From: a virus
DNA: 24,136 bases
Virus record (IMG/VR): IMGVR_UViG_3300017739_000114
Coordinates: 1 to 24,136 of that record
Reading direction: 5' to 3' (one strand)
Both the position numbers and the translations under genes were made by a program. The notes under the pieces are model-generated. The model was not told the origin of the DNA. It was given only the letters and a program-made list of their open reading frames with translations, and made no database searches. Positions 6,804 to 24,136 of the stretch are shown one piece after another (positions within the stretch are counted from its first letter, which is position 1; the number at the start of each line of letters is the position of its first letter).

Positions 6804-9800
6804 ATGTACACCGGAAAGTCTAACAATCGTTTTAGCTCTAACTATACTTCTGATGCAATGTCAGAAGAAGAAGCTAAAAAATATGCAATGAAAATGGGTA
6901 TGTCAGACTCATTGCGTGGTATACAACAAATGTTTGGTAATATAACTGGTAATGAAGACTTACTAGAAAAATTAAAAAAGAAAGACCAAAGGTTAAAAAA
7001 GATATTTGAAAATCCAAACTACGGAGATGAGGTTTTTAAATATTATTTAGGAGCTGCTGTTGTAGCTGACCCTATAGGTTATATACCTATACTAGGTTGG
7101 GGTAAAAAAGTTAAAACTTTAAGTCAAGCTGCTACCTATGGTGCTGGTATGGGTGGTGCTTATGGAGGAGCTGCTTATGTTGGTGAGGGAGAAAATAGAG
7201 CTTTAAATACTTTAGTAGGAGCTACTGCAGGTGGGGTTTTAGGTTTAGGCGGTGCTGGAATACTTAGAGGTATACAAAAAGCTACAGGTAATAATCCTAC
7301 ATTTGCTAAGACTTTAAAACAAAGACAACAAGAAAACATCGAAAAAGGAGCTACTAAAACCTCTTTAGGAAAAAACATATCCGAAGCTGATTACGAAGAG
7401 TTAACTAATCAAGCAATAAAAAACATACAAAAAGAAAAACCCGGTGCAGGGTTAGAAGGTAATTTAGAAACTTTTTATAATAATGTAGGCGGTACTCGTA
7501 TATGGGATATGGCTGTTCAAAACTGGGGAACTGGTCTGTCAGCTGTTGCTGGTGGGTTAGGTGGTTTTAATGCTTTTGATGATGGAGAGTCTACTCAAGC
7601 TCAGAAAATAACCGCAGCTTTGCTCATGTCTTTAGCAGGAGGAGCAAGTGCTAAAGTTCTAGGTAAAATTACATACAAAGATAAAACTTTATCTGAAATG
7701 ATACAGGCTGGTATTGTAGATAATTATGGGCTACCTAAAGGATATGTACAATTAACTAAAGCTACTTTTGGTGAAGTAAATGAGTTAAGACAACAATTTT
7801 TAAAAAGTGCTAAAGAAATAGCTACGTTAGAGCCAGACGAAAGAAAAAATGTTTATCGTCTAATGACAGGACAAATAAACGAAATGGATAACTTAGGTAA
7901 TTTTAGTTTAGAAGCTAGAAAAGTAATTACTAAAGCTGGTCAAGAAATGGTTGATGCTGGTTTATTAGACCCAGACATATTCCAAAAAAACATGGACACT
8001 TATTTACATCGTAGTTACACTAAACACGTTAATAAAACAGGAAATACATCTGATTATAAAGCTGCTAAAAGATTAAAATTAATTGGCGATGAGTTAAAAA
8101 GAAGAGGACAAAAGTTAGATAAAGTTATTTCTAAAAAAGCTTATGAAGCTAGTTTTAAACCTACAAGTAAAACTTTTGGTAGATACGATGATTATACTAC
8201 AGTTTTAGATGTAGAGACTGTTGTGTCTAAAAATAGATATAATAAACTTACTGAAAAAATAGATAGAAAAAAAGTTATTCGTGATAAAGATTATAAATTA
8301 AATAAAACTGTCGATGATGTTAGGCAGTGGGAAGTAATAAGAGATGAAGGAGACCAGTTACTTTTAAGACATAAAAACAAAGTAGAGTTAAGAAGAGACT
8401 ATACAGACATCGAAAGAAAACAATTAGGAGAGATAGAAGATGCAGCCTTTGCTGTAGCTGAAACTGGTCGTTTAATGACTAATGATTTAGCCGTTTATAA
8501 ACTATACAACAATATTGCAAAAGAAAAAAAATACTCTTTAGATATTGATGAGTTTAATAATGCTATTGATAATAAACTTATAAAGACTGAAGACTGGGTA
8601 GAAGTACCTACGGATAAACTTTCTGGAGTTCCTGTAGCTAAGTTTGGAACTTTAGCAGGTAAATATGTACCAACAGAAATCTATGACGATTTAACAAAAA
8701 TTCAAATGTCTAAGGAAGCTGGTGGAGCTGTACTTAGAAATTATCTAGCAATCAATAGAGTTTGGAAAAAATCTAAAACTGCATGGAATCCTGTAGTTCA
8801 TGTGAACAATACTATTTCTAATGTAATACTTTATGATTTAGCAGGTGCTAAATATAGATTTATGCACAGAGGATTTAAAGAATTATCAAAAGGTATTGAA
8901 GGAGACGAGTCTGCAAGACTTTATAATTTAGCAAAAGCTAATGGAGTTTTTGATAGTGATTTACTAAGTAGAGAATTAACTGACCAAACTAAAGATGTTA
9001 TGGACTCTGCTTTAAAAAATTTATCAGACGAATTAAACCCAGAAATAATAGGTGCTCAAAAATATTCTTTAGAAACTTTTAATAAATTAAGCTCTAAAGG
9101 ATATGATATGAGTTTAGGTAAACTAGATAATTTTTATCAGTTAGAAGACCAAGCTTTTAGAATGGGTTTATTTATGGATAGAATGGCGAAAGGTATGAAG
9201 CCACAAGAAGCTGCAGCTGATGCTAAAAAATGGTTTATAGACTACGATATAAATGCACCGTTTATAAACTTTATGCGTAGATTCCCTACTCCTTTTATTT
9301 CTTACACTTACAGAGCTTTACCATTACTAGCTGAAGCAGCTATAAAAAGACCTTGGAAGTATGCTAAGTGGGCTGGTTTAGCCTACGGTTTAAATGAAGT
9401 AGGCAAAGGTAAAGTTCCGTTTGCTGAGTATTTTTCTGATGACCCCGACTTCGGTAGGTTTCAAGAAGAAATAGGAAATGAAGAAACAGAACGACTTTTA
9501 ATGAGGGAAAATTTAAGAAACAAATTATTCGGTGTTCCGTTTATGCCAGACACTTTAATTAAAACTCCTTTTGCTTCTGGCAGAGACAAAGAAACTCCTT
9601 TATATTTAGATGTAAGAAGATTTATTCCGGGTGGTGATGTATTTGCTGTAGGAGATAAAGGTATCGGAATACCTATTGGTTTTGGTAAAAGTTTAAAATT
9701 ACCTGAAGTAATTACTCCTAACTTTGGTGCTCCCGGTGAAGTATTTTTTCCATTACTAACAGGAGTAGACCCTTTTACATTACAAAAAATAGACGGTTTA

Positions 9801-12241: not shown

Positions 12242-12454
12242 TTATTTAACTTTACTTTGTAATTGTTCGTGAAGAGGAGCAACGGCATTCTTTACGTGTG
12301 TGATTAGTACTTTAATTTTTTCTTTTTCAGGAAAATTAAAAATTTTATCTATATCTTTATCTTTTAAAAAAGATAGCTCAGTAATATAATTATTATTTTT
12401 ATCAACTACTAATTTCCAACTAATTAAGTTTCCTTCTGTTTTATTCTTCGTCAT
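12242..12454 (-). CDS. Small hypothetical protein at the end of the nrd operon
   Basis: A 70-residue, charged, soluble protein beginning MTKNKTEGNLISWKLVVDKN and ending in a helical part with LITHVKNAVAPLHEQLQ. No family is recognised and there is no membrane segment or metal-binding motif. It starts inside the last codons of nrdB (14-base overlap) and is the last gene of the minus-strand arm. Its only link with ribonucleotide reductase is operon position. Confidence 0.65.
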   Translation of the reverse strand: MTKNKTEGNLISWKLVVDKNNNYITELSFLKDKDIDKIFNFPEKEKIKVLITHVKNAVAPLHEQLQSKVK

Positions 12455-13424
12455 TACTTACTCCTACAAATTTTATTTGGTCTTGTCTTCCTCTAAGACC
12501 TGCTTTCATATAAGAAGTAGCTCTACCTTCAAAAAAGTTTTGATGCTCTACTCCAGTAACTTCATCAATCCAACCTAAAGGATTTTCTCTTTGGTCATAA
12601 TTAGTTTTTAAACCAAGTTGTAATAATCTTCTATCTGCAATATATCTATTGTAAGCATACATGTCTTTTTTAGTAAGACCTTCTAAATCGCCCATGTTAA
12701 ATACTAAATCTAAAAACTTATCTTCAAGTTTTACCATGTGTCTACATATTTCGTATATTTCTTTTTTAAAATCATCTGTCCATATATCTAAGTTTTCTTG
12801 AATAAACTCTCTAAAAAGTTTAGTCATTGCTTCAACGTGCATTGATTCATCTCTTATAGAATAAGTAACTATTTGACCCATGCCTTTCATTTTACCGAAC
12901 CTTGGAAAGTTTAATAAGATTGCAAAACTACTAAAAAGTTGTAGTCCTTCGGTAAAGGCTGAGTAGACTGCTAAAGTCTTAGCAATACTTCTTTTATCAG
13001 AACGTACAGTTTTTAACTCACTTATGTATTCATGTTTATTAGACATCTCTTCGTATTCTGCAAAAGCTTTATATTCTATCTCAGGCATACCTACAGTATC
13101 TAACAAAAGACTGTAAGCATCTTGGTGAATTGCTTCCATATTAGCAAAAGAACCCATCATCATTCTAGCTTCTGGTTTTCTAAATATTCTCATATATCTA
13201 TCTATGTACCCCGAAGCAACATCAACATCTGATTGAGTGAACAATCTAAATATTTGCGTTAGTAGGTTCTTTTCTTTATCTGTAATATCTTGCCAGTCTT
13301 TAACATCTGTGTGTAATGGTACAGACTCTGGCATCCAATGCATTTGATTTTGGAGTTTGTAATAATCATACATCCAAGGATAATCAAAAGGTTTATAGTA
13401 TTCTCTAGTTTTTAATAGGCTCAT
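12441..13424 (-). CDS. nrdB: Ribonucleoside-diphosphate reductase, small (beta) subunit, class I
   Basis: A 327-residue protein of the ferritin-like class I R2 family, which holds the metal centre and tyrosyl radical used by NrdA to make deoxynucleotides. The metal ligands are visible: D66 (31 residues before the next ligand, as in E. coli), E97 and H100 in MEAIHQDAY, E159 in FTEGLQ, and E193 and H196 in RDESMH. Y104, four residues after H100, matches radical Tyr122 of E. coli, so a standard tyrosyl-radical enzyme is expected. The acidic C-terminus (SNDEE) probably docks on NrdA. The start codon directly abuts the nrdA stop. Two genes side by side on the same transcript fit stoichiometric production. 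Recognition is secure; the exact subclass is less so. Confidence 0.95.
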   Translation of the reverse strand: MSLLKTREYYKPFDYPWMYDYYKLQNQMHWMPESVPLHTDVKDWQDITDKEKNLLTQIFRLFTQSDVDVASGYIDRYMRIFRKPEARMMMGSFANMEAIHQDAYSLLLDTVGMPEIEYKAFAEYEEMSNKHEYISELKTVRSDKRSIAKTLAVYSAFTEGLQLFSSFAILLNFPRFGKMKGMGQIVTYSIRDESMHVEAMTKLFREFIQENLDIWTDDFKKEIYEICRHMVKLEDKFLDLVFNMGDLEGLTKKDMYAYNRYIADRRLLQLGLKTNYDQRENPLGWIDEVTGVEHQNFFEGRATSYMKAGLRGRQDQIKFVGVSNDEE

Positions 13425-15317
13425 TTATCCCTCACAAGCAATACATTCCACATCATCTAAACGAACACGTGGAATTTTGGTGTTAACATTTTCTACATTT
13501 CTGGCTGCGTTAGTTCTAAAATAATATAAAGATTTTAGTTTATGCATACCATACCAATGCACATCACTCACATATTGCATGTATTCATCATGCACATCTT
13601 GAGCTTCAGTAGCACTTGGTAAATTAAAAAACAAATTTACTGACTGGGCTTGACAGATAAACTCTTGCCTTTTATAAGCATGTTCTATCAACCAAATCTG
13701 ATTCAGTTCATTTGCAGTTTTAAAAATTTCTTTTTCTTCAATAGTAAGAATATCTAAGTCTTGAACAGAACCCTCATTACTTACTATAGCTTTCCATATA
13801 CTTTCAAGTTCTTCTCCTTTTAAACCTTTACTACGTAATACTTTTTCTAAGTATTTATTTTTTACTTGATAACTACCAGATAAAGTTTTATGAGTAAAAA
13901 CGTTTGCTCGATAAGGTTCTATCGAGGGAGACGTACCAGAACATATAATGCTACTACTAGCATTGGGAGCAATGGCAAGTAGATGAGCATTACGCATACC
14001 AGAACCAGATACATCAGGAGCTTCACCCCTGATATCAGCAAGTTCTTGACTAGCTTTTTTAGCTTTGGTTTTAATATCTTTAAATGTTTGATAATTAAAT
14101 CCCGTAGCTTGGATTCCTTCAAAAGGTATACCGTTTGATTGTAGATAGGCATGAAAACCCATTGCACCCAAACCCAAGGAACGTTCTCGATAAGCCGAGT
14201 AAGCTGCTTTTTCATAACCTTCTTTTCCTTCTTTAACATAATTTTTAAAACGTTTAAAATTAGCACTGTACTCGCCTAATTGCTCTGTGTCAATAGCGTT
14301 ATCAATAAAATGTTGTATAACATTATCTAACATAGTTATTAAATCTCTTATAAAATCTTTATCTTCTTTCCAAGTATCGTAGTGTTCTAAATTTACACTA
14401 GACAAACAACACACTGCGGTTCTTTCTTCGTCAGTTGCTAAAGTTATCTCTGAACATAAATTACTTTGTCTTATTTTTAAACCTAAATCTTTCTGTCCTT
14501 GTGGTAAATGTTCATTACAAGTGTCGATATTAATTAAGTAAGGCTCTCCAGTTTCTGCCCTAGCATTAATTAACTGCCACCAAAGAGAACGAGCATTGAC
14601 AGTTTTTACTGCTTCATTACTTTTAGGGTCTATTAATCTAAAGTTATCATCTTCTTCTACGGCTTTTAAAAACTCATTAGTAAGATTAATACCATTATGT
14701 AAGTTTAAATTCTTTCTGTTTATATCTCCACCAGATTCTTTTCGCATGTTGATAAACTCTTCAATCTCTGGATGAGATATATCCATGTAAGCAGCATAGC
14801 TACCTCTTCTAGTTACCCCCTGATTAAAGGCTAACATTTGCGAATCAACTACATGTATGAATGGAATTGAACCAGTAGAACGACTGCCGCTAGAAGTAGA
14901 TACACCGTTACTCCTAATATCTCCCCAATATCCACCAATGCCTCCACCTGCACTAGCCAACCAAATGTTTTCGTCATAGTGAGCAGATAAACCAGAACGG
15001 CTATCAGGTACGTAATTAAGGAAACAGCTAATAGGTAACCCACGACTTGTTCCCCCGTTACTAAGTATAGGAGTGCTAAACATGAACCAACCATCGGAAC
15101 AGTAGTTATACAATCTCTGAGCCAACTCGAAGTCAGTGTGTTTTTTATATGTTGCTGCAAATACTGCAGCCCTTGCAAAAGATTCTTGTGCATGTGTTTC
15201 TTCCTCCCAGAAGTATCTATCTTTTAAAGTGTCTAGACTAAATTTGTCTAGTTTCTTTTCTTTATTGTAATTAATATTGATGCCTAAATAAGGCTTTTCT
15301 CCAATCTTATCATCCAT
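13425..15317 (-). CDS. nrdA: Ribonucleoside-diphosphate reductase, large (alpha) subunit, class I
   Basis: A 630-residue protein that reduces ribonucleotides to deoxyribonucleotides with NrdB. It shows C98 in LPISCFLNY, the active-site trio N286, C288 and E290 in SNLCSEI, and C303 in AVCCLSSVNL (partner of C98). It also has the paired radical-transfer tyrosines Y598-Y599 in LYYFRTN, and a C-terminal redox pair C625/C628 (ECIACEG) that reloads the active site from thioredoxin or glutaredoxin. It is shorter than E. coli NrdA (761), and the N-terminal ATP-cone allosteric domain appears to be absent, so overall activity control by dATP may be lost. It overlaps the DUF3310 gene by 8 bases and abuts nrdB. 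The ribosome binding site is weak, suggesting coupling. Confidence 0.95.
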   Translation of the reverse strand: MDDKIGEKPYLGININYNKEKKLDKFSLDTLKDRYFWEEETHAQESFARAAVFAATYKKHTDFELAQRLYNYCSDGWFMFSTPILSNGGTSRGLPISCFLNYVPDSRSGLSAHYDENIWLASAGGGIGGYWGDIRSNGVSTSSGSRSTGSIPFIHVVDSQMLAFNQGVTRRGSYAAYMDISHPEIEEFINMRKESGGDINRKNLNLHNGINLTNEFLKAVEEDDNFRLIDPKSNEAVKTVNARSLWWQLINARAETGEPYLINIDTCNEHLPQGQKDLGLKIRQSNLCSEITLATDEERTAVCCLSSVNLEHYDTWKEDKDFIRDLITMLDNVIQHFIDNAIDTEQLGEYSANFKRFKNYVKEGKEGYEKAAYSAYRERSLGLGAMGFHAYLQSNGIPFEGIQATGFNYQTFKDIKTKAKKASQELADIRGEAPDVSGSGMRNAHLLAIAPNASSSIICSGTSPSIEPYRANVFTHKTLSGSYQVKNKYLEKVLRSKGLKGEELESIWKAIVSNEGSVQDLDILTIEEKEIFKTANELNQIWLIEHAYKRQEFICQAQSVNLFFNLPSATEAQDVHDEYMQYVSDVHWYGMHKLKSLYYFRTNAARNVENVNTKIPRVRLDDVECIACEG

Positions 15318-15549
15318 TTTGTGTCTCTAATATTGTTAATAGTTTTTTCTCGTACCATTCGGCTTTCTTTAAATCCTCAATACCGTTTTTATATTTAAAT
15401 CTCCAACGATATTTAAGTGAGTTTCCTCGTAAATATCCAACAAACTCATCGTGAGTTAGCATAGACTCAATAGCATCTATACATTCTATGCTTCCTTTAT
15501 TGTAATGTTCTGGTTGATTTATTATATCATTTATTGTTTTAGGTTTCAT
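15310..15549 (-). CDS. DUF3310-family phage protein
   Basis: A 79-residue protein when started at the ATG at 15549. It has the family's signature: HYN (15-17), IECIDAI (21-27), GYLRGN (39-44 region), KYRWR (46-50) and EDLKKAEWY (58-66). DUF3310 proteins are widespread in phages, often annotated as nucleotide-kinase-like, and their function is unproven. I prefer this start over the upstream ATG at 15618 because AGAGGAA lies 8 bases before it. The overlap with the preceding gene is then only 11 bases rather than 80, and the family begins near this point. It lies between the resolvase and nrdA, in the DNA metabolism operon. Confidence 0.9.
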   Translation of the reverse strand: MKPKTINDIINQPEHYNKGSIECIDAIESMLTHDEFVGYLRGNSLKYRWRFKYKNGIEDLKKAEWYEKKLLTILETQNG

Positions 15550-15976
15550 TTTTAAATTCCTCTGGTAATGTGTGTTCTGAATACCACTTAAAGTTATTCT
15601 TTTCAGCCCATTCAGCATGGCTTCTTTTAGTTCCGTCTTTTCTCCTTTTAGCCTGTGGCATAGGAGATGTAGGACTAGAAAATAAAAATATTAATTCTTG
15701 ATTTTCTTTTAAACTTTTTCTAATCCAAACATATTTATTATATTCGTTGTAATCCCAAAATCTTCCTTTAGCTTCTAATAAGTATTCTATATCGTTAATA
15801 ACTTTAGTAAAGTCAGGCTCATAGTTATGTTCAACAATATAAGAAATCTTATCGCTATGGTGACTCCAATCTTTTAATATTGAAGTGTGTAGATTATATT
15901 CCCATTTAGAGTCATATCCTTTTGGAGTGTTTTTCTCTACAGGTCTTACCTTTCTAGGCTTTCGATAACCCCTCAT
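15539..15976 (-). CDS. Endonuclease I-like Holliday junction resolvase (T7 gp3 type)
   Basis: A 145-residue protein, almost the length of T7 endonuclease I (149). The catalytic PD-(D/E)XK residues line up: E26 (SKWEYNL), D55 (YEPDF), E68 and K70 (LLEAKG). The C-terminal half has the family pattern of a hydrophobic strand (LIFLFSS), a basic segment (AKRRKDGTKRSHAEWAEKN) and a final aromatic strand. In T7 this enzyme resolves branched DNA and helps break down host DNA, and here it sits beside the exonuclease and polymerase. It overlaps the upstream gene by 4 bases (ATGA) and the DUF3310 gene by 11. Confidence 0.9.
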   Translation of the reverse strand: MRGYRKPRKVRPVEKNTPKGYDSKWEYNLHTSILKDWSHHSDKISYIVEHNYEPDFTKVINDIEYLLEAKGRFWDYNEYNKYVWIRKSLKENQELIFLFSSPTSPMPQAKRRKDGTKRSHAEWAEKNNFKWYSEHTLPEEFKNET

Positions 15977-16233
15977 AAGAAATCCTGTAACTTTATTTTT
16001 TCTAACTTTTTAGTTCTACTTAATTTTTTAATTTTTTTAGAAAACCATTTTTCTGTATACGCCGAAAGAAATAATTTACCATTCGCATACACATATTTTT
16101 CTTCTGGTACTAAAGTATGATAGTTTTGTAAGTTAACTTTACTAGCTTCTTCTTTAGGTAATAAACTTTTTACCCATTCAACAACTAACAGTTTAGCTTT
16201 TTTCCTAATTAATTTAGATTTTTTACCACTCAT
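15973..16233 (-). CDS. Lysine-rich small hypothetical protein
   Basis: An 86-residue basic protein starting MSGKKSKLIRKKAKLLVVEW. It has a helical first half (WVKSLLPKEEASKVNLQNY) and a basic end (KWFSKKIKKLSRTKKLEKIK). The charge would suit nucleic-acid binding, but no fold is recognised. I recall similar proteins (A-KLLVEWV-SLL-EEEA) in marine phages as conserved unknowns. It is linked by 4-base overlaps to both the exonuclease upstream and the resolvase downstream, so it is probably co-translated with them. Confidence 0.75.
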   Translation of the reverse strand: MSGKKSKLIRKKAKLLVVEWVKSLLPKEEASKVNLQNYHTLVPEEKYVYANGKLFLSAYTEKWFSKKIKKLSRTKKLEKIKLQDFL

Positions 16234-17093
16234 ACTAAAACCTCTTCAACATTAGGCATCTTTTTTATTTCAGTAAAGTAAACATTTCCTTTTGCATACT
16301 TAAATACTTTTAAACCTTCTCCATCGTTACTGCCTTTATAACATTTAAATTTATGAGGACAGTAAACACAATCCATAGGTAATTTCATATTACCCGAAGC
16401 TCCTTCTGGTATTGTTTGATAGCATAATTCAGGCGGAGTATCTTTTTTTATGGCTGCTTTAACTTTTTTAATCTTGTCTTTAATGTTAGGCTTATCTAAA
16501 TCATCAGGAATAAAAGTAGTAAGCTCTCCAGTTTCTTTATTCATAACTAAAAAGCCACCGTTATTTGTTTTTTCTGCTTCTTCGTATCCTGCTAGTTGTG
16601 ATAAGTAACCAAAACTATCGTACTGTCCTAGTGTGCCTTCTTTAAATTTTCTAAAAGAATAGCCAGAAGCAGTCTTAACATCTATAACTTCACCGTCAAT
16701 TTTACAATCCATGTGCCCTTTAACCCCGGAAACTTTTATTTCTTTTTGTTCGTCTGTAACCTCATGTCCAGAGAGCTTAACAAAAAACAAAAGCAATACT
16801 TCTAATAAATGACCATATAAAAATTTAATCTGTAAACTAGGTGATATTGTTTCTGAGTTTGTTTCGTCTTTTATGTCATACCATAATCTTCTTAAAGGTC
16901 TGCCTATGTTAGACATACGTAAAGTATTTCTAGGTTGATTATTAGGTGTTGCCCAATGCTGTAAGGCACTAGCCATTTCTTTTCCAAAACTATCTAATAG
17001 TTTGTCTGAAAACTCTAAAGGTTTTCCTTCTGATAAAACACCAATTTTAGAATAAATATCTTCTACTAATGTATCAATTTTCTTTTGTTTCAT
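16230..17093 (-). CDS. PD-(D/E)XK exonuclease (RecB/Cas4-like) with a cysteine cluster
   Basis: A 287-residue nuclease. Catalytic elements in order: E98 (GHLLEV), D129 in GVKGHMD, D138 and K140 in GEVIDVKT, and the RecB-family QxxxY motif Q166-Y170 (SQLAGY). Near the C-terminus C242, C245 and C251 form C-x2-C-x5-C, the spacing that AddB and Cas4 nucleases use with one more Cys to hold a 4Fe-4S cluster. C224 is the possible fourth ligand, although in those families it normally precedes the nuclease core. In this operon it takes the place of the T7 gp6 exonuclease, so it probably degrades DNA ends for nucleotide recycling or recombination. GGAG lies 8 bases before the start. It overlaps its upstream neighbour by 20 bases. 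Confidence 0.85.
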   Translation of the reverse strand: MKQKKIDTLVEDIYSKIGVLSEGKPLEFSDKLLDSFGKEMASALQHWATPNNQPRNTLRMSNIGRPLRRLWYDIKDETNSETISPSLQIKFLYGHLLEVLLLFFVKLSGHEVTDEQKEIKVSGVKGHMDCKIDGEVIDVKTASGYSFRKFKEGTLGQYDSFGYLSQLAGYEEAEKTNNGGFLVMNKETGELTTFIPDDLDKPNIKDKIKKVKAAIKKDTPPELCYQTIPEGASGNMKLPMDCVYCPHKFKCYKGSNDGEGLKVFKYAKGNVYFTEIKKMPNVEEVLV

Positions 17094-17499
17094 TTTTTAA
17101 CTCCTGAAATACTTTAAAGACATCTGCAGTAAACAGCTTTTGAATATTAACTAAATACATTCGACTTGCGTTATGGTCTCCGCCACTTACTGACTTTAAA
17201 TAATCTAATTTTTTTACTAACTGTTTTAGTTTTGGCACATCAAAAACTAAGGTACAAAATATATCCTCACCAATACATAAATTATGAAACCAAAAATCTG
17301 CTTCGGTAGCTTCAATACCTGACGGTTTACCATAAGATTGATACTCAATACAAATGTTACCGGTCTTCATCCACATTCCTCGTTCTGATTTTACTTCTAT
17401 TTTTTTATTAGTTAGCATATCTGCTATTCTATCTTCTCTAATAGAGCCATACTGTAAATCTAAATCAAATTTCTTTCTATCTTCTTTAATGGGTTTCAT
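17074..17499 (-). CDS. Small PD-(D/E)XK-like or DNA-metabolism protein
   Basis: A 141-residue soluble protein. The N-terminal half has YGSIREDRIADML (17-29), KIEVKSERGMW (33-43, containing an E35-x-K37 pair), TGNICIEY with E52, and GKPSGIEATEADFWF (58-71). An EVK strand followed by a GN-IEY strand and SGI--T-AD-W is a layout that I associate with small restriction-fold nucleases of phages. The proposed catalytic set (E22 or D27, E35, K37, E52) is tentative. It lies between the polymerase and the exonuclease with overlaps of 14 and 20 bases. A structural or accessory role with the polymerase is equally possible. Confidence 0.7.
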   Translation of the reverse strand: MKPIKEDRKKFDLDLQYGSIREDRIADMLTNKKIEVKSERGMWMKTGNICIEYQSYGKPSGIEATEADFWFHNLCIGEDIFCTLVFDVPKLKQLVKKLDYLKSVSGGDHNASRMYLVNIQKLFTADVFKVFQELKNETKEN

Positions 17500-19216
17500 A
17501 CCAACTATCCCCTATCTTGTATTCACCATCTAGAGGACAGCGAAGATTAAAATGTTCTCCTGCTTGGACAATGCTTTCAACAGCTAATTGACCTACAAAT
17601 TCGGATTGATTTTCTTGAACTTCAATCTGCCATTCATCGTGAATATTAGCAACAAATTTATAGTTTATAGTATTTAAGTTTAACTGATTTTCAAGTAAAC
17701 ATAAAGCTTTTTTCATTACTATAGCACCTGCTCCTTGTAATAAAGTATTTAAAGCTGCATGTTTATGCCTTAATATTATTTTTCTACCGTCTAAACCTTT
17801 GAGGTAATTTTTTGTTGTTGCTCTTTGAACTCTATCTGCCAAAGTTTTAAATGCTGGACTATTAGCAATAAAGCGTTCTCGCATTCCCTTACCTTCTGCT
17901 CTACTTCCGTCAACAATGCTTCCAAGTTTTGCGTCTCCTGCTCCGTAGATAAGTGCATAGATAAATGTTTTTGCCTTATCTCTTGATTCAAGTCCTGCAA
18001 GTCTTTGGTTAGCTGTGTGGACATCTCCATTAATGATTTCATTTACGTACTCCGTGTCAGCCATATAGTGTGCTAACATTCTTAATTCTAAACCACTTGC
18101 ATCTATACCTACAAGTTTATTACCTTCTTCGACTACCCAACAGGCTCTGCATTCTTTTCCATAAGGAGAAGAAACACTAGGTACTTGAGCCATGTTGGGG
18201 TCTCTATGGGTCATTCTGCCAGTTATTGCACCAGTAGAAATTACTGAGCCATGAACTCTTTCATCTTCACCTATGGCATCTATCCAAGAATTAACTTGTG
18301 CCAATCTTTTTTGATAAAGTAAAAAGTCTGCTATTAATTTAGCTTCTTTAATATGAATTATTTCTTTTAGTGTTCCTTCGTCAACTATCGGTTGACCTGT
18401 AGGTGTAAAGTTTTTAGGTTTCCAACCAAAATCTTTTAAGTATTCTCCGATTTGTTTTCTACTACCCAGATTAAACTCTTGTAATTTTTTACGGTAAAAA
18501 GGAGTAAGGTCTTTAGTGTCTTTTCTACTAGCATACTCGTAATCAGTTAAACCAGACTTAGACAAAGACCCGTCTTTTTTAAGCTTTGGAGTTACTAATT
18601 TCTCATCTATCCATTTGGGTTTAAATGTTTTATGAACTTCATCTTCTACTTTCTTAATATTACTTTGTAGTTCGCTAGTTAAAAACATAGCTTCTTTTAA
18701 ATTAAATTTAAAGCCATTCGATTTTTGATGGGTTAATATATTAGTTATTTGATTTTCAATCTCTATACTTTCTTTTGTAAAACCTTTAGACTCAGTTTTT
18801 AAATGCTCAAAAAGTTTCTTGTTTACTTTTACATCCTGTACGCAATACTTTAACATTTCATCAGAGTAAGTTTTAAAGTCTGGCTTATCCCATTTAGCTA
18901 ATGCTAATCTATAACCCCACTTCTCTAAGCTGTGTCCTCCTTCTCTGGTAGGATTAAAAAGTCTAGATAGAACTAAAGTATCTATAACTTTATTAGGGTT
19001 GTATAAATCTATATCATATAACTTTTTTATCACTGGTATATCAAAACCAATTATATTATGTCCTATAATTTTATCGGCTTGTTGTAAAAGATTAATACCT
19101 TCATTAATTTTATCCTCAGAATAAGAATAAACTTTATCGTTCTCATCAATAGCAACAATGCACCAAATCTTAGTAGCATCTAAGTCGTCTGTCTCTATGT
19201 CAAATACTAATTTCAT
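17486..19216 (-). CDS. polA: Family A DNA polymerase, T7 gp5 type
   Basis: A 576-residue replicative polymerase. The 3'-5' exonuclease domain has D6 and E8 (FDIETDD), D59 (NIIGFDIP) and Y124-x3-D128 (YCVQD). The polymerase domain has GAITGRMTHRDPNMAQVPS (about 329-347), motif A with D372 (GIDASGLELRMLAHYM), motif B R412, K416, Y420 and Y424, and motif C H526-D527-E528. It matches T7 polymerase closely but is about 130 residues shorter. Much of this is lost around the exonuclease domain and in the thumb, where T7's thioredoxin-binding loop lies (here about 198-249). The residue at the E. coli Phe762 position is Tyr420, as in T7 (Tyr526). It is expressed with the primase-helicase 3 bases upstream. 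Confidence 0.97.
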   Translation of the reverse strand: MKLVFDIETDDLDATKIWCIVAIDENDKVYSYSEDKINEGINLLQQADKIIGHNIIGFDIPVIKKLYDIDLYNPNKVIDTLVLSRLFNPTREGGHSLEKWGYRLALAKWDKPDFKTYSDEMLKYCVQDVKVNKKLFEHLKTESKGFTKESIEIENQITNILTHQKSNGFKFNLKEAMFLTSELQSNIKKVEDEVHKTFKPKWIDEKLVTPKLKKDGSLSKSGLTDYEYASRKDTKDLTPFYRKKLQEFNLGSRKQIGEYLKDFGWKPKNFTPTGQPIVDEGTLKEIIHIKEAKLIADFLLYQKRLAQVNSWIDAIGEDERVHGSVISTGAITGRMTHRDPNMAQVPSVSSPYGKECRACWVVEEGNKLVGIDASGLELRMLAHYMADTEYVNEIINGDVHTANQRLAGLESRDKAKTFIYALIYGAGDAKLGSIVDGSRAEGKGMRERFIANSPAFKTLADRVQRATTKNYLKGLDGRKIILRHKHAALNTLLQGAGAIVMKKALCLLENQLNLNTINYKFVANIHDEWQIEVQENQSEFVGQLAVESIVQAGEHFNLRCPLDGEYKIGDSWYETH

Positions 19217-19219
19217 AAC

Positions 19220-20884
19220 TTAAAAAGGACTATCCTCTTTTAAAACTTCTAGTTCTTTATCAAAATATTCTGATAGTCTCCCAGTCTCTACATCGTAGAG
19301 TAAAGATGTAGCTAAACCAACATCTCCGGTATACCTAGATTTTAATATTCTTAATCTTGTTGTTCTAGACTCTATATCATCTGTAGATTGTTGGTCTCTT
19401 TCTAAAGCAATAACACAATCGGATAACTGTGCAATACTATTAGACCCTCTAAGATGTGATAAACTTACTGAGATACCATTCTCATGCCCTTTATTTCCTT
19501 CTACTCTACGTAAGTGTGATACCAATACGATACCTGCTCCTGTTTCTTCAACCAAACTTCTCAGTCTAGTCATAATCATATCAATAGTTCTTCGTTCATC
19601 GCCTTCATTAGAAGCACTAACTAGCATGTGTAAGTGGTCTACAATAACCCATTTACAATCGCAACCTACAATTAAGTATCTAAGTTTAGCAAATATATCT
19701 TCAATGTCATTAGTACCAAAGTGAGCATGTATAAAAACTTTATCATCATTAAAGAGTTGAGCATACATATCTTTTAGTTTTTCAGGATTTATTTTTTCTC
19801 TTATAGGGTCTATGTAAAGCCTTTCATTAGCTTCTATAGATAAAATTCCATCTACAGTTCTTCGCCAATCTTCTTCTAAAGCTATAATTCCTATGTTGTC
19901 ATCTGTTGTATTTATTAAATGATGTTCTAACTCTCTAGTTATACTAGACTTACCAAGTCCAGTTCCTCCAGTTAAAGTTACTAACTCTCCTTGTCTAAGC
20001 CCGTATAGTTTTTTGTTAAGACCATCCCAAGGATAAGGTACACTATCTTTGCGTTCTCTTTTTAAGAACGACTGTACCTTTTTTGAAACTCTAATAATTC
20101 CGCTTGGAGTATAAGACTGAGCATCCCAGAAAGCCCTAGTAAATTCTTGATGTTGGTTCTTTCTAAGCATGTCATTAGCATCTTTGTAACCATTGGGTAA
20201 AGTCATTATCTTAGCTTTTCCGGGCTTAATAATATTAGCTACTTTTTTAGCTGCTTCTTGCCCTTGAGCATCTTTGTCAAAACAAATAACCACATTATCG
20301 AATGACTCAATATACTCTATGTTTTCTTTTATATCTTTAACTGCTCCCTGTGCTCCATTTTTAATGGAAACAGAAGCCCACTTACTGCCTAGTAATTCGT
20401 AGGCAGCCATAGCATCACATTCTCCTTCTACGATTGTTAAATACTTACCACCGCTTTTAAATAAATTTTGTCCAAATAAAGCTGTACCTTGCATTGTACC
20501 TTCGAAACGAAACATCTTATCTCTAATAAGCCTAGTTTTAATTCCTGATACTTCGCTTTGATTATAGTAAGGGTATAAGTGTTGGGCTATAACTCCTGAT
20601 GAATCATAAACCACCTTCACTCCATACTTCTCCGCTGTTTCTCTGGATATTTGTCTGTCTGTTAGTGGAGCATAAATACCACCATGCTTGTCTGCAAAAG
20701 AATAAGATTGTTCTTTTGTTACATTTTCTTCTATTAAGTTTTTAATGTCTCCTCCTTCAAAGTTAGGGAAAAATTTTGAACAACTAAAACATTTAGCTGA
20801 ACCGTCTGAGTTAACTGATACTGCATCGCTACTACCACACTCAGGGCAGGGCACATGATACTTTATAAATTTAGTTTTTTCCAT
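19220..20884 (-). CDS. Bifunctional primase-helicase, T7 gp4 type
   Basis: A 554-residue protein (T7 gp4 has 566). It carries an N-terminal zinc finger C13, C16, C32 and C35, and a TOPRIM primase domain with E153 and D157 (VEGECDAM) and D203 and D205 (CFDKDAQG). The C-terminal RecA-like helicase has Walker A GGTGLGKSS (306-314), the E337-E338 pair, Walker B VIVDHLHML with D416, VSHLRR (455-460), LRGSNSIAQLSD (478-489) and a probable arginine finger R517 in LKSRYTGD. It should prime lagging-strand synthesis and unwind the fork for the neighbouring polymerase. The start follows an intrinsic terminator by 12 bases. The ribosome binding site is weak (GAG, 9 bases upstream). Confidence 0.97.
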   Translation of the reverse strand: MEKTKFIKYHVPCPECGSSDAVSVNSDGSAKCFSCSKFFPNFEGGDIKNLIEENVTKEQSYSFADKHGGIYAPLTDRQISRETAEKYGVKVVYDSSGVIAQHLYPYYNQSEVSGIKTRLIRDKMFRFEGTMQGTALFGQNLFKSGGKYLTIVEGECDAMAAYELLGSKWASVSIKNGAQGAVKDIKENIEYIESFDNVVICFDKDAQGQEAAKKVANIIKPGKAKIMTLPNGYKDANDMLRKNQHQEFTRAFWDAQSYTPSGIIRVSKKVQSFLKRERKDSVPYPWDGLNKKLYGLRQGELVTLTGGTGLGKSSITRELEHHLINTTDDNIGIIALEEDWRRTVDGILSIEANERLYIDPIREKINPEKLKDMYAQLFNDDKVFIHAHFGTNDIEDIFAKLRYLIVGCDCKWVIVDHLHMLVSASNEGDERRTIDMIMTRLRSLVEETGAGIVLVSHLRRVEGNKGHENGISVSLSHLRGSNSIAQLSDCVIALERDQQSTDDIESRTTRLRILKSRYTGDVGLATSLLYDVETGRLSEYFDKELEVLKEDSPF

Positions 20885-20896
20885 AATATTTTACTC

Positions 20897-20936
20897 AAAA
20901 AAAAAGAAGCTCGACTTTAATTAGCCGAGCCCCTTT
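20897..20936 (-). terminator. Intrinsic terminator after the ssDNA-binding protein unit (minus strand)
   Basis: On the minus strand AAAGGGGCTCG (20936-20926) pairs with CGAGCTTCTTT (20913-20903) as an 11-bp stem with two G-U pairs and a 12-base loop, running into nine T's (20905-20897). On the plus strand the two wobble pairs become A-C mismatches, so the hairpin works best on the minus strand. It lies between the 84-residue gene and the primase-helicase start. Confidence 0.85.
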
Positions 20937-20958
20937 CTACACAACAACAACCTACTGG

Positions 20959-21213
20959 TTATTCTTTCGTTTCAATAGTCTTTGTTTCAGATTCTATTGG
21001 CTCTTCAACAATTTGACTTTCAGGAGAATCGTTAAGTAACTTTTCTAAATTACTTCTATGAGTCTGACTTGTAAAAGATAAAGCTTCTATAATTACTTCT
21101 AAAGTTCCAGTCTTAGAAACAATGATAGCTGCTTCTCTAGCTTTAGCTTCATCTTTTATTTTATTAGTATCGTAGGTGATTTCCCCTGAGTCATTCTTAA
21201 TGTTGATAATCAT
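20959..21213 (-). CDS. Small acidic hypothetical protein in the ssDNA-binding unit
   Basis: An 84-residue protein. The N-terminal part is a probable beta hairpin (MIINIKNDSGEITYDTNKIK), the middle is helical (AKAREAAIIVSKTGTLEVII), and the tail from about 62 is very acidic (PESQIVEEPIESETKTIETK) and likely disordered. No family is recognised. It is coupled to the ssDNA-binding gene by a TAATG overlap and followed by a terminator, so the two form a two-gene unit. That suggests a role linked to single-stranded DNA or to the binding protein. Confidence 0.75.
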   Translation of the reverse strand: MIINIKNDSGEITYDTNKIKDEAKAREAAIIVSKTGTLEVIIEALSFTSQTHRSNLEKLLNDSPESQIVEEPIESETKTIETKE

Positions 21214-21662
21214 TAGAATTCCTCGCCATCGTCAAAGGGAGTAAGTTCATCCCCGTCAGAGCTTTTCATTTCAACAAGACTAACTACTTGCATTCCTTGA
21301 AAATCTAAGGAGACTCCAGTTTTACCTGCATACTCCCAAGGATATTCATTATATTGAACACGAACCTCAGAGCCGTTACCTACTTTAGTGCTGATTTCAA
21401 CTTTGTTTCTATCAACTAATTTAGGAGCAGGTCTTGGTCCTTTCTTTCCATTAACTTTTCTTTTAATGGTTAGAGCTTTACCGACATACTGTTGCTCTCC
21501 GCTTTCATCTTTCAGAGAAAAGTCTTTAACTTTAACTCCTCTTTTTTCAAACTCTTGAGCAACCTCATCACTTACAACTAAATCAACTGTATATACAGGT
21601 TCAAAAGTAGTATTAGGTGTGGTTACACTTGCCCAATAAGCTTTTCCGTTTACTATTGCCAT
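21213..21662 (-). CDS. ssb: Single-stranded DNA-binding protein (T7 gp2.5-like)
   Basis: A 149-residue protein with an OB-fold-like alternation of strands (AYWASVTTPN, YTVDLVVSDE, KALTIKRKV, SEVRVQYNEYPWEY, VSLDFQGMQVVSLVEM). It ends in a short acidic tail with an aromatic last residue, DDGEEF. T7 gp2.5 (232 residues) ends in the same style, and its terminal Phe contacts polymerase and helicase. It should coat single-stranded DNA and organise the replisome. It has its own near-consensus promoter, a perfect GGAGG 7 bases before the ATG and a terminator beyond the following gene, consistent with high expression. The family call rests on the tail, the strand pattern and the context. Confidence 0.8.
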   Translation of the reverse strand: MAIVNGKAYWASVTTPNTTFEPVYTVDLVVSDEVAQEFEKRGVKVKDFSLKDESGEQQYVGKALTIKRKVNGKKGPRPAPKLVDRNKVEISTKVGNGSEVRVQYNEYPWEYAGKTGVSLDFQGMQVVSLVEMKSSDGDELTPFDDGEEF

Positions 21663-21669
21663 TTATTTA

Positions 21670-21674
21670 CCTCC
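21670..21674 (-). promoter_or_regulatory. Strong ribosome binding site of the ssDNA-binding gene
   Basis: GGAGG on the minus strand lies 7 bases before the ATG at 21662. It is one of the best Shine-Dalgarno matches in the window and fits a highly made protein. Confidence 0.85.
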
Positions 21675-21706
21675 GTAATTTTTGACATTTGTTATTTATA
21701 AAGTGC

Positions 21707-21735
21707 ATTCTACTCGTAACATGAAATGTTGTCAA
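21707..21735 (-). promoter_or_regulatory. Sigma70-type promoter for the ssDNA-binding unit
   Basis: On the minus strand a perfect -35 box TTGACA (21735-21730) and a -10 box TAGAAT (21712-21707) are separated by exactly 17 bases. They lie in the non-coding gap before the ssDNA-binding gene. A start near 21700 would give a leader of about 38 bases carrying the GGAGG site. Confidence 0.85.
21718..21730. promoter_or_regulatory. Inverted repeat in the promoter spacer, possible operator
   Basis: AACAT-GAA-ATGTT forms a 13-base dyad lying entirely between, and touching, the -35 and -10 boxes of the ssDNA-binding promoter. A repressor bound here would block RNA polymerase. Short arms mean chance is possible. 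Confidence 0.35.
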
Positions 21736-21773
21736 GTGCAAAACGTACACAATATTATTATTAATAAATTTTA

Positions 21774-21932
21774 TTAATTTGTTTTTAATTTTAAAGTTCC
21801 TAATTGAATAAATACATTTAATTGGTATCTAATTAGTCTTTGATAAACCTTTGGTTGATATTTTTTTAATCTATCAAAAGTTGGTTTATACTTTAAGTAT
21901 TCTACTAAGTCTTTAGGGTTTATTTTTTTCAT
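21774..21932 (-). CDS. Small basic hypothetical protein (52 residues)
   Basis: Found by hand. ATG at 21932 overlaps the stop of the upstream basic-protein gene (ATGA), and TAA lies at 21774-21776. The product begins MKKINPKDLVEYLKYKPTFD and is rich in Lys, Tyr and Leu (RLKKYQPKVYQRLIRYQLNV), probably two or three short helices. No family is recognised. It is the last gene before the promoter gap of the ssDNA-binding unit. The stop-start overlap and the lack of any alternative gene in this stretch support it. Confidence 0.6.
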   Translation of the reverse strand: MKKINPKDLVEYLKYKPTFDRLKKYQPKVYQRLIRYQLNVFIQLGTLKLKTN

Positions 21933-22087
21933 CTACCCTGACCTCTATATTTAATTTTTCTTTGTAACTTTTTACGCTTGTTCATGTGCTTGGTAGATTG
22001 TTTAACCTTTCTACCACGACCTGCTAAACCTTGTGAGGTTGATTTTTTTACATGTTTTATTAAAACATTTTCTTTTCTTACTGCCAA
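21929..22087 (-). CDS. Small highly basic protein with KYRGQGR tail (52 residues, TTG start)
   Basis: Found by hand. A TTG start at 22087 sits immediately after the upstream stop, with GGAGG five bases before it (22097-22093), which decides the start. The product begins (M)AVRKENVLIKHVKKSTSQGL and ends with MNKRKKLQRKIKYRGQGR, so about a third of the residues are Lys or Arg. I recall small phage proteins with the same plan (STSQG or STS-G, then MNKHK-R, ending KKYRGQG) in marine viromes, which supports it as a real conserved gene. The charge suggests RNA, DNA or ribosome binding; no function is known. Confidence 0.7.
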   Translation of the reverse strand: MAVRKENVLIKHVKKSTSQGLAGRGRKVKQSTKHMNKRKKLQRKIKYRGQGR

Positions 22088-22246
22088 TTAATCCTCCAAT
22101 AAATAAATATCAACATAAATTTTTTCTACTTGTTCTTTAAACTCTATAATCGACATACTCGTAATAGGTAATTCTTTAACTAAAGCTTTAAAAGATTGTG
22201 CTTTAATTCTTTGTTGTCTTTCTACTTCCCAACTAGCAGGGGTCAT
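22088..22246 (-). CDS. Small hypothetical protein (52 residues)
   Basis: Found by hand. ATG at 22246 overlaps the stop of the upstream membrane gene (ATGA) and is preceded by AAAGGAGATAAAG, a strong ribosome binding site. The product begins MTPASWEVERQQRIKAQSFK and ends with an acidic helix (VEKIYVDIYLLED). It is soluble and unrecognised. Its last codons contain the GGAGG of the next gene, so the two are tightly coupled. Confidence 0.7.
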   Translation of the reverse strand: MTPASWEVERQQRIKAQSFKALVKELPITSMSIIEFKEQVEKIYVDIYLLED

Positions 22247-22560
22247 TCTTTATCTCCTTTGTTTTCTGCAATACTTTCATAGCTTTTTAATTTATTAGGT
22301 AAATTTAATTCTTCTTTAAGTTTTTCTACTTCTGTTTCATTAATAAATAATTGAAAAGCAAAGTTATCTAATAGTTCAGTTAAGTCTAATATAGAATCAG
22401 TAATAACTTTTTGATTTTGTATCAGTTGATATATGTCTTTATCATTCATATCTATATTATCATTAATAGTAACAAATGATTTTTTTAAAGCAAACATAGT
22501 TATAGTTGTAAAGCCAATTATAACTAATATGGCTACCCAAGTTAATATTTTATTAAACAT
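22243..22560 (-). CDS. Single-pass membrane protein with coiled coil, early region
   Basis: A 105-residue protein from the ATG at 22560. It has a hydrophobic segment at about 4-25 (KILTWVAILVIIGFTTITMF) followed by a charged helical domain with LIQNQKVITDSILDLTELLD and an acidic-basic tail. I chose 22560 rather than the GTG at 22569 because GAGGT lies 7 bases before the ATG, and the start then falls just after the preceding stop. The topology, a membrane anchor plus a coiled coil, recalls spanin-like or superinfection-type proteins, but no family is recognised. Its place among early genes argues against late lysis. Confidence 0.7.
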   Translation of the reverse strand: MFNKILTWVAILVIIGFTTITMFALKKSFVTINDNIDMNDKDIYQLIQNQKVITDSILDLTELLDNFAFQLFINETEVEKLKEELNLPNKLKSYESIAENKGDKE

Positions 22561-22561
22561 A

Positions 22562-22837
22562 TTAAGCACCTCTTTTTTTATAAATTTTTAATAATTCTTT
22601 TCCTTTTAATTTTTTTCCAAATAGTTTTTTAGATTTATCTTTATAAATAAATCTTTCAATTCTACTGTCTTCGTATGTAGTATCACAAACATAACCTTGT
22701 CTATTAGGATTAGGGTAGTCGTATGCTACATTAGTATTATCAGTATTAAATACATGAACACTTTTTATTTTATTTTGCCATTGCTCTGCTTCTAATAATA
22801 ATTTTTGTTCTTCTACTTCTTTTTTAAATTCAGTCAT
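22562..22837 (-). CDS. Hypothetical early protein
   Basis: A 91-residue protein with a helical acidic N-terminus (MTEFKKEVEEQKLLLEAEQW), a central part with Asn and Tyr (FNTDNTNVAYDYPNPNRQGY, one Cys) and a basic C-terminus (KDKSKKLFGKKLKGKELLKI). It is soluble and unrecognised. It overlaps the upstream gene by ATGA, in a chain of small early genes. Confidence 0.65.
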   Translation of the reverse strand: MTEFKKEVEEQKLLLEAEQWQNKIKSVHVFNTDNTNVAYDYPNPNRQGYVCDTTYEDSRIERFIYKDKSKKLFGKKLKGKELLKIYKKRGA

Positions 22838-23067
22838 AGTTTATTTTCCTCTGTAAAATATTTATTATATTCTAAACAAACAAAAGTTTCAGCTTTTATT
22901 TCTTCTTCTTGTTTAATATATTTTTCTAGTTTAACAATGTTAGATTGTAAATAACTAGAACAATCTTTTAAAGTAGTAAATTTAAAATCAAAAATGTAAG
23001 CATCAATAGTGAAACCATTAAACTCACTTAATTCTAGTATAGCAACTATTACCCACGAAGCAATCAT
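22834..23067 (-). CDS. Small protein with hydrophobic N-terminus
   Basis: A 77-residue protein. The first 13 residues (MIASWVIVAILEL) are hydrophobic, a possible short signal or anchor, though too short for a confident membrane segment. Then come a mixed part with FDFKFTTLKDCSSYLQ and a charged end with two of its Cys residues at about 36 and 64. The spacing of start and stop (ATGA overlaps on both sides) places it firmly in the early operon. An exported protein with a disulfide is possible but not shown. Confidence 0.6.
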   Translation of the reverse strand: MIASWVIVAILELSEFNGFTIDAYIFDFKFTTLKDCSSYLQSNIVKLEKYIKQEEEIKAETFVCLEYNKYFTEENKL

Positions 23068-23393
23068 AATTTTTCCTCTATTTCCTGTTGAAGTTCTTCA
23101 ATAGTTTTTGAAATATTTTTATTGTACCTTTTTTTATAAAAAAGAATACCCATATCAAGAGCTTTTCTTTTTATTTTATGTTCTGCAACATGACCTTCCC
23201 ATGTTCTAAAATCTTTTTGGCGACAAATGTCTTGCCATTTTTTGATTGAAAGTTTTCTAAAGTTTCCCTCACTAGAAAATCTAAGATAAACCCATTTACG
23301 ACCAACAGAACGAACAGTAGCTTTACGATAGCCGCAACCTTCACCTCTTAGTCCAGTCTTTATATCATCGTGATAAAAATAGTAGTGTTCCAT
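23064..23393 (-). CDS. Hypothetical basic early protein
   Basis: A 109-residue protein. The N-terminal half is strand-rich with basic and aromatic residues (YYFYHDDIKTGLRGEGCGYR, RKWVYLRFSSEGNFRKLS). The C-terminal half is helical with KIKRKALDMGILFYKKRYNK and an acidic end. The character suits a small nucleic-acid-binding protein, but no family is recognised. It starts 2 bases after the previous stop and overlaps the next gene by ATGA. Confidence 0.65.
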   Translation of the reverse strand: MEHYYFYHDDIKTGLRGEGCGYRKATVRSVGRKWVYLRFSSEGNFRKLSIKKWQDICRQKDFRTWEGHVAEHKIKRKALDMGILFYKKRYNKNISKTIEELQQEIEEKL

Positions 23394-23395
23394 AA

Positions 23396-23632
23396 TTACT
23401 CTACTCCATCAATTATTAATTCTGCTCGAGTTTCTATAACAACTCTAGCACCACAAGATAAGGCAGTTTTTTCATTACCACTATAACTTACTTTGCTCTT
23501 ACCAAGTATCTCAACTTTATGGCAGTAAGTATTTTTCTTACCTTCCTTGATAGTTATTACAGGATTGTTTTCATTATTTTTTTTGTTAGCTCTTATCACA
23601 TGTTGATTAACATGAATATATTTTTTAGCCAT
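23396..23632 (-). CDS. Conserved small phage protein with IHVNQHVI motif
   Basis: A 78-residue, beta-rich protein beginning MAKKYIHVNQHVIRANKKNN, with NPVITIKEGKKNTYCHKVEI and ending SCGARVVIETRAELIIDGVE. I recall proteins with the same sequence signature (IHVNQH-I, NPVIT-K, HRVEI-GPS-V-YS, L-CGARVWIET) in many marine phages. They have no assigned function and are presumably small folded domains with strands. GGAGG followed by AAAAAG precedes the ATG. It overlaps the upstream gene by 8 bases. Confidence 0.8.
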   Translation of the reverse strand: MAKKYIHVNQHVIRANKKNNENNPVITIKEGKKNTYCHKVEILGKSKVSYSGNEKTALSCGARVVIETRAELIIDGVE

Positions 23633-23897
23633 CTTTTTCCTCCAAATGTTTTTTAATTAAATTTTCCATAGCCTTTCCAACCTTCATAGGTTTTTGTTTA
23701 TCAATCCACTTGTGCCTATCTTTAATCTCATAGATTTCAACACCTTCAAAGCTGCTATCATCAGCTCTTCGCCACCAATCTATGACTCTGTTTTTTAAGG
23801 GGAGAATACTATCAGTATTATCATACTCCACATGAACTGTACCTGCGACATAATCTTCGGCTACAGTTATCCCTTTATCTATTAGTTTAACTTCCAC
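23625..23897 (-). CDS. Hypothetical early protein (GTG start)
   Basis: A 90-residue protein starting (M)EVKLIDKGITVAEDYVAGTV. It has a WWRRADDSSFEGVEIYEI segment and a basic helical end (GKAMENLIKKHLEEKDG). The GTG start is decided by AAAGGAGGT ending 5 bases upstream, the best ribosome binding site of the early block. It is soluble and unrecognised. It overlaps the 44-residue gene upstream by 16 bases. Confidence 0.65.
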   Translation of the reverse strand: MEVKLIDKGITVAEDYVAGTVHVEYDNTDSILPLKNRVIDWWRRADDSSFEGVEIYEIKDRHKWIDKQKPMKVGKAMENLIKKHLEEKDG

Positions 23898-24016
23898 TCT
23901 TTACCTCCTTTAGTTGTGAAAAATTCTTCGAGTTCTTTTTGTTCTTTCTCAGTTGGTTTGAAGTGAGGATTTAAAAAATACTCCTGTAACAATGTACCTT
24001 TTTTATAGCCCTTCAT
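23882..24016 (-). CDS. Small hypothetical protein (44 residues)
   Basis: Found by hand. ATG at 24016, TAA at 23882-23884. The product begins MKGYKKGTLLQEYFLNPHFK and ends with a charged helix (TEKEQKELEEFFTT and a GGKEWKLN tail). GAGGA lies 8 bases before the ATG, and the ORF continues the same-strand chain of overlapping genes. Its 3' end supplies the GGAGGT of the next gene. It is unrecognised. Confidence 0.6.
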   Translation of the reverse strand: MKGYKKGTLLQEYFLNPHFKPTEKEQKELEEFFTTKGGKEWKLN

Positions 24017-24136
24017 TTACTTCTTCCTCGTCTATTGGCATCCAATCTCCATCAAGATAAGAGTCTAGTGATGACCACTTCCAATCAGTAGCATCTGAAT
24101 CATTGCCGTCTTCTTGAAAGATTGTACCATCTTTTA
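24003..24136 (-). CDS. C-terminal part of an acidic hypothetical protein (5' end outside the window)
   Basis: The open frame enters from the right edge and leaves 43 residues before TAA at 24003-24005. It is very acidic and Trp-containing (DGTIFQEDGNDSDATDWKWS, SYLDGDWMPIDEEEVNEGL). No family is recognised. It overlaps the following 44-residue gene by 14 bases. Confidence 0.6.
   Translation of the reverse strand, partial: KDGTIFQEDGNDSDATDWKWSSLDSYLDGDWMPIDEEEVNEGL

Follow-up and report, generated by a model that had tools for sequence, protein, structure and literature searches.

The DNA analysed here (the window) is a 24,136-base virus fragment, positions 1 to 24,136 of IMG/VR record IMGVR_UViG_3300017739_000114. 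Its minus strand carries T7-like replication genes (primase/helicase, DNA polymerase, Cas4-like exonuclease, endonuclease and ribonucleotide reductase) and, ahead of them, a gene for a single-stranded DNA-binding protein (SSB). The nearest isolates by SSB were the Pelagibacter phages HTVC115P, HTVC104P and HTVC103P, with identities of only 40–50%, and these phages also took the top ranks for primase; thus, the host of this uncultured ocean phage, a pelagiphage-like record, is probably a SAR11 bacterium. IMG/VR searches returned 24 loci with SSB and 80 with primase as query, and the 95 loci with enough upstream sequence (window and isolates included) were reduced to 27 representatives sharing < 90% nucleotide identity in SSB. 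An initial annotation had described a TTGACA, a 17-base spacer, a TAGAAT, a GGAGG, the SSB ORF, an 84-residue acidic gene and a minus-strand terminator, all of which are present where it had placed them, as follows.

21774..23897, minus strand: small early genes ahead of the SSB unit and on its strand, each abutting or overlapping the next.
21730..21735, minus strand: -35 hexamer TTGACA of the SSB promoter (TTGAC at the same place in 25 of the 27 representatives).
21707..21712, minus strand: -10 hexamer TAGAAT after a 17-nt spacer (TATAAT in most relatives), placed by hexamer scoring and by the relatives.
21663..21706, minus strand: A-rich 44-nt leader, with GTCAA at 21686–21682 and GGAGG at 21674–21670.
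21213..21662, minus strand: gp2.5-like ssDNA-binding protein of 149 aa ending in DDGEEF (phrog_112, E 6e-13).
20959..21213, minus strand: small acidic protein of 84 aa, net charge -7, whose start overlaps the SSB stop by 1 nt (family alignment A6; neither Pfam nor PHROG offered a family).
20897..20938, minus strand: intrinsic-terminator-like hairpin of 16 pairs (stem 20938–20901) with a U-run to 20897.
19220..20884, minus strand: primase/helicase (phrog_239, E 1e-182), the first gene past the hairpin; a promoter of its own was not found.
12242..19216, minus strand: remainder of the replication arm downstream of the hairpin (DNA polymerase, Cas4-like exonuclease, endonuclease, ribonucleotide reductase).

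The minus-strand genes otherwise abut or overlap, as had been noted, and the two large gaps are the 111 nt ahead of SSB and the 74 nt ahead of primase. A 102-aa ORF at 15310–15618, which overlaps the endonuclease gene, matches just the C-terminal part of phage nucleotide-kinase profiles.

Judged by its sequence, the SSB gene product is a member of the gp2.5-like family; the Pfam profile SBB_T7 gave only 15.9 bits, below the cut-off. The acidic tail with its terminal phenylalanine was general, EF closing the protein in all 27 representatives and EEF in nearly all. Directly after SSB (≤ 4 nt from its stop), 25 representatives, all but HTVC115P and HTVC104P, have a small ORF encoding an acidic protein (net charge -3 to -19). 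These proteins fall into at least three dissimilar families (the types of the window and L104, of L084 and L015, and of L053 and L105), with L045 possibly a fourth; none gave a confident Pfam match, only weak PHROG matches of unknown function were obtained, and the fold predicted for the acidic protein was of low confidence (pLDDT 62). Since an acidic partner persists through these changes of family, it may share a role with SSB.

The SSB promoter has the sigma70-type hexamers (consensus TTGACA/TATAAT, 16–18 nt apart), matching at 11 of 12 positions with a spacer of 17, and with the generic consensus as yardstick it was the only site scoring ≥ 11 within positions 14000–24136; transcription would start near 21700. 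Site counts in the window equalled the shuffled expectation for promoter-like (42 observed, 41.5 expected) and terminator-like sites (3 observed, 3.4 expected), so that the window alone would not prove function, and 100 shuffles of the 110 nt upstream reached the score of the SSB promoter three times. Such single-sequence statistics are weak, and the signals are taken as real because they are conserved in relatives. A promoter scoring 11–12 of 12 preceded the SSB ATG by 32–47 nt in 24 of the 27 representatives, with a spacer of 17 nt (16 in two) that itself varied in sequence. The exceptions were L084 (9/12, at the same place), HTVC115P (TG followed by a perfect -10) and HTVC104P, which had none upstream of SSB. 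Within the same loci, a score of ≥ 11/12 was reached at 21 of 24 SSB genes compared to 10 of 260 other ORFs. Inverted repeats resembling operators were seen in the promoter (AACATTTCATGTT in the window, others around the -10) but were rejected, as they were not significant when the spacer and downstream bases were shuffled (combined p about 0.06, with clades that are not independent).

Conservation extended into the leader. Among 2227 GGAG..ATG contexts, GCCAA followed by GGAG and then ATG was found in 47 distinct SSB contexts and 8 others, a count that reflects conservation and not independent origin, since many of the contexts are related by descent. The motif is thus largely specific to SSB, reading GTCAA in the clade of the window and GCCAA in most relatives. 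In T4, gp32 acts at a leader site to repress its own translation (PMC3014915), and by analogy a gp32-like autogenous loop acting through the SSB leader motif is possible.

The hairpin of the window folded better than shuffles (z -4.3), and its U-run ends at 20897, 13 nt short of the primase ATG (20884). A significantly stable hairpin stood directly before primase in 22 of the 27 representatives; of the five without the standard form, three (L104, L062 and L041) enclose an inserted RNA within the stem, HTVC115P has a gap of just 21 nt, and the terminator of HTVC104P lies further upstream. Stem sequences differed strongly between clades. In one clade, with the arms joined by hand, pairing was 100% with no mispair and 4 of 8 pairs were changed on both sides, so that the features of an intrinsic terminator, a GC-containing stem with an immediate U-run, are accompanied there by a stem kept through compensatory change. 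The two comparisons across relatives (24 of 27 for the promoter, 22 of 27 for the hairpin) show that both elements are conserved beyond the coding sequence, and close relatives had not lost the pair while keeping the genes. Searches of Rfam with the window and 26 related loci gave no match at the gathering score, and none for the window at E up to 1.

Several further features were seen around the hairpin. Most relatives (e.g. L104, L047 and L071) carry a conserved TATCTCCA directly before it, just after the stop of the acidic gene, which is absent from the clade of the window; this anti-Shine-Dalgarno-like sequence is also scattered elsewhere in these genomes, where the copies are possibly the antisense of Shine-Dalgarno sequences. 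Within the last 60 nt before primase in the L014–L027 group and L103, the terminator loop contains TGTGCAT, complementary to an ATGCACA directly after the U-run; the pairing, both arms of which are invariant, could serve as an antiterminator or a start-site clamp. In HTVC104P (L002), promoter and terminator stand almost back to back after SSB, and a short, lipoprotein-like ORF (MAVIFLLLGLSACSW..) runs over the terminator after position 8459.

A search with PF00940 found a T7-type RNA polymerase in none of 20 related records, three complete isolates among them, whereas a search of this kind did detect the positive control HTVC022P (E 1e-105); most of the related records are fragments, beyond which other polymerases or distant promoters may lie. 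Given this absence from relatives that include three complete isolates, the host RNA polymerase likely reads the SSB promoter, in agreement with the host-polymerase-driven production originally suggested. The HTVC027P transcriptome was considered as direct evidence and set aside, no close relation to HTVC027P having been found. In longer relatives the early arm begins at a perfect divergent promoter pair about 8–11 kb before SSB, and therefore the SSB promoter appears to be an extra start inside a longer arm, with the hairpin as a step down after the second gene. These perfect divergent sigma70 pairs (L222:774-840, L223:4874-4956), which lie outside the window fragment, are probably the main early/late switch point. 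L223 has further perfect promoter-like sites inside its early arm, at least one of them intergenic. The description of the SSB unit as the only promoter-to-terminator cassette holds for the 24-kb fragment, but longer relatives have the divergent pair and, in one case, the internal sites.

Within the 300 nt before primase, the best promoter site scored 7–9 of 12 in 26 of the 27 representatives; the exception, HTVC104P, has an 11/12 site ahead of its terminator. The hairpin lies about 13–30 nt from the primase ATG, which leaves no room for a promoter after it. Transcription of the replication genes must therefore pass through the hairpin, and the idea of a self-contained unit has to be given up, as no site above 9/12 was found ahead of the downstream genes in these 26 representatives.

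We consider it likely that the locus is the head of a replication operon with an attenuating terminator that leaves SSB and its acidic partner in excess. Host RNA polymerase with the housekeeping sigma factor would initiate at the near-consensus promoter, some 40 nt upstream of SSB, and transcribe SSB together with the translationally coupled acidic gene. The intrinsic terminator just before primase would then halt part of the polymerases, and the remainder, plus any arriving from upstream early genes, would read on into primase, DNA polymerase, the nucleases and ribonucleotide reductase. Because part of the polymerases would stop before primase, SSB and its partner would be made in excess over the replisome. 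The promoter, the two-gene overlap, the hairpin, the conservation of these and the absence of another promoter are read directly from the DNA; we infer the transcription start, the degree of termination, the protein ratio and the cooperation of the acidic protein with SSB. HTVC115P, which lacks the hairpin, HTVC104P, which lacks a promoter upstream of SSB, and one subclade with a weaker post-stem tail (CCATTTTAATT), whose hairpin might not terminate, speak against this model.

It is rather unlikely that the hairpin acts instead as a barrier at the 3' end, or as a processing site, making the SSB-partner mRNA more stable once a longer transcript has been cut, with a real promoter driving the whole operon. 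The stem is kept in some relatives with a poor U-run, and in T4 RNase E processes the gene 32 mRNA, which is unusually stable (PMC3014915). However, most relatives have a tail after the stem whose T content clearly exceeds background: over the nine bases after the stem, 48 loci with a strong hairpin had a mean of 5.0 T compared to 2.8 in background, a conservative figure because the scorer chose a different pairing in the L014–L027 group. A closed unit is improbable, in which termination would be full and the replication genes would depend solely on a promoter that escaped notice or on early transcripts made insensitive to the hairpin by antitermination. The window hairpin is very strong and the TGTGCAT loop of one clade offers a possible antiterminator, but no site above 9/12 precedes primase in 26 of the 27 representatives, and no antitermination factor came to light in searches aimed at other functions. 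That promoter- and terminator-like sequences arose by chance in an AT-rich genome, as the shuffle-like site counts of the window would allow, is scarcely credible, since it is contradicted by position-specific conservation spanning relatives down to about 53–60% SSB identity. The promoter and hairpin signals of this probable attenuated operon head are, on this comparative evidence, real and conserved, and would provide a fairly ordinary route to more SSB than downstream enzymes.

In some relatives, a conserved pseudoknotted RNA of about 70–190 nt was observed (e.g. L080:2965-3055, L038:1635-1760, L091:3845-3985 and L112:6416-6530, with about 75 more distinct elements); it is absent from the window itself. 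Of 80 distinct elements, 32 had a primase of the SSB-unit type as the downstream gene, and many of the 32 take the place of the loop of the SSB-unit hairpin. Its layout is GG-TTAGC-GGAAAAGAGGATAGCTATTAAAGTATAAATCC-[variable arm]-GAACAACGCC, and L037 has an element-free version with nearly the same flanks. Three helices, two of them crossing to form the pseudoknot, were 95.3% paired (cells) across 31 sequences from which the variable arm had been removed by hand; slid versions reached ≤ 41.1%, a control that is flattering because the structure was picked by eye from some of the same sequences, and the nine pairs changed on both sides are the firmer evidence. Of 23 records, 16 have the element, each as a single copy, and 71 of 80 elements lie on the strand of the longer flanking ORFs. 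The element has about 25 downstream-gene contexts and, by crude clustering, about 15 types of variable arm, this fourth arm being exchangeable. It had no match in Rfam 15, where a relaxed search of one insert returned only chance-level hits, and searches of isolate phages and host genomes gave only chance matches, in coding sequence of Salmonella phages and one Selenomonadales contig. Regulation of read-through by the element is one possibility; that it is a new class of mobile regulatory RNA (a switch or ribozyme) deciding SSB-to-replisome transcription at this site is a tentative idea that we hold to be doubtful.

Compared to known systems, the SSB shares with T7 gp2.5 the same broad family (phrog_112) and an acidic tail ending in phenylalanine, and as in T7 its gene adjoins T7-like primase/helicase and polymerase genes. 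T7 transcribes gene 2.5 with its own RNA polymerase, whereas an enzyme of that type was not found in the 20 records related to the window. HTVC115P, HTVC104P and HTVC103P share the gene order SSB-primase-polymerase; HTVC104P and HTVC103P keep a strong terminator after SSB, and HTVC115P has its TG-preceded -10, but the position of the acidic gene differs. Leaky intrinsic terminators, in which a hairpin and U-run between genes set the gene ratio, are found in bacterial and phage operons; the same combination within an operon is predicted here from sequence. The locus also resembles T4 gene 32, an SSB gene expressed at a high level by host RNA polymerase and regulated apart from its neighbours (PMC3014915, PMC2988021). 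In T4, however, transcription is modified by the phage, RNase E processes the RNA and gp32 binds a pseudoknot in the leader, whereas here we found a plain sigma70-type promoter, a conserved hairpin after the unit and a protein of the gp2.5-like rather than gp32 family. For another pelagiphage without an RNA polymerase, sigma70 promoters, but no terminators, were predicted near the replication genes (PMC10504331), and a small, open-licence sample of the literature held no report of this SSB arrangement.

These results provide concrete conserved transcription signals for ocean phages that apparently lack an RNA polymerase of their own, and would give a simple account of how SSB is kept more abundant than the replisome. 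Some relatives also have an undescribed structured RNA lodged at the terminator, and the signals could be used as calibrated parts for studies of SAR11 transcription.
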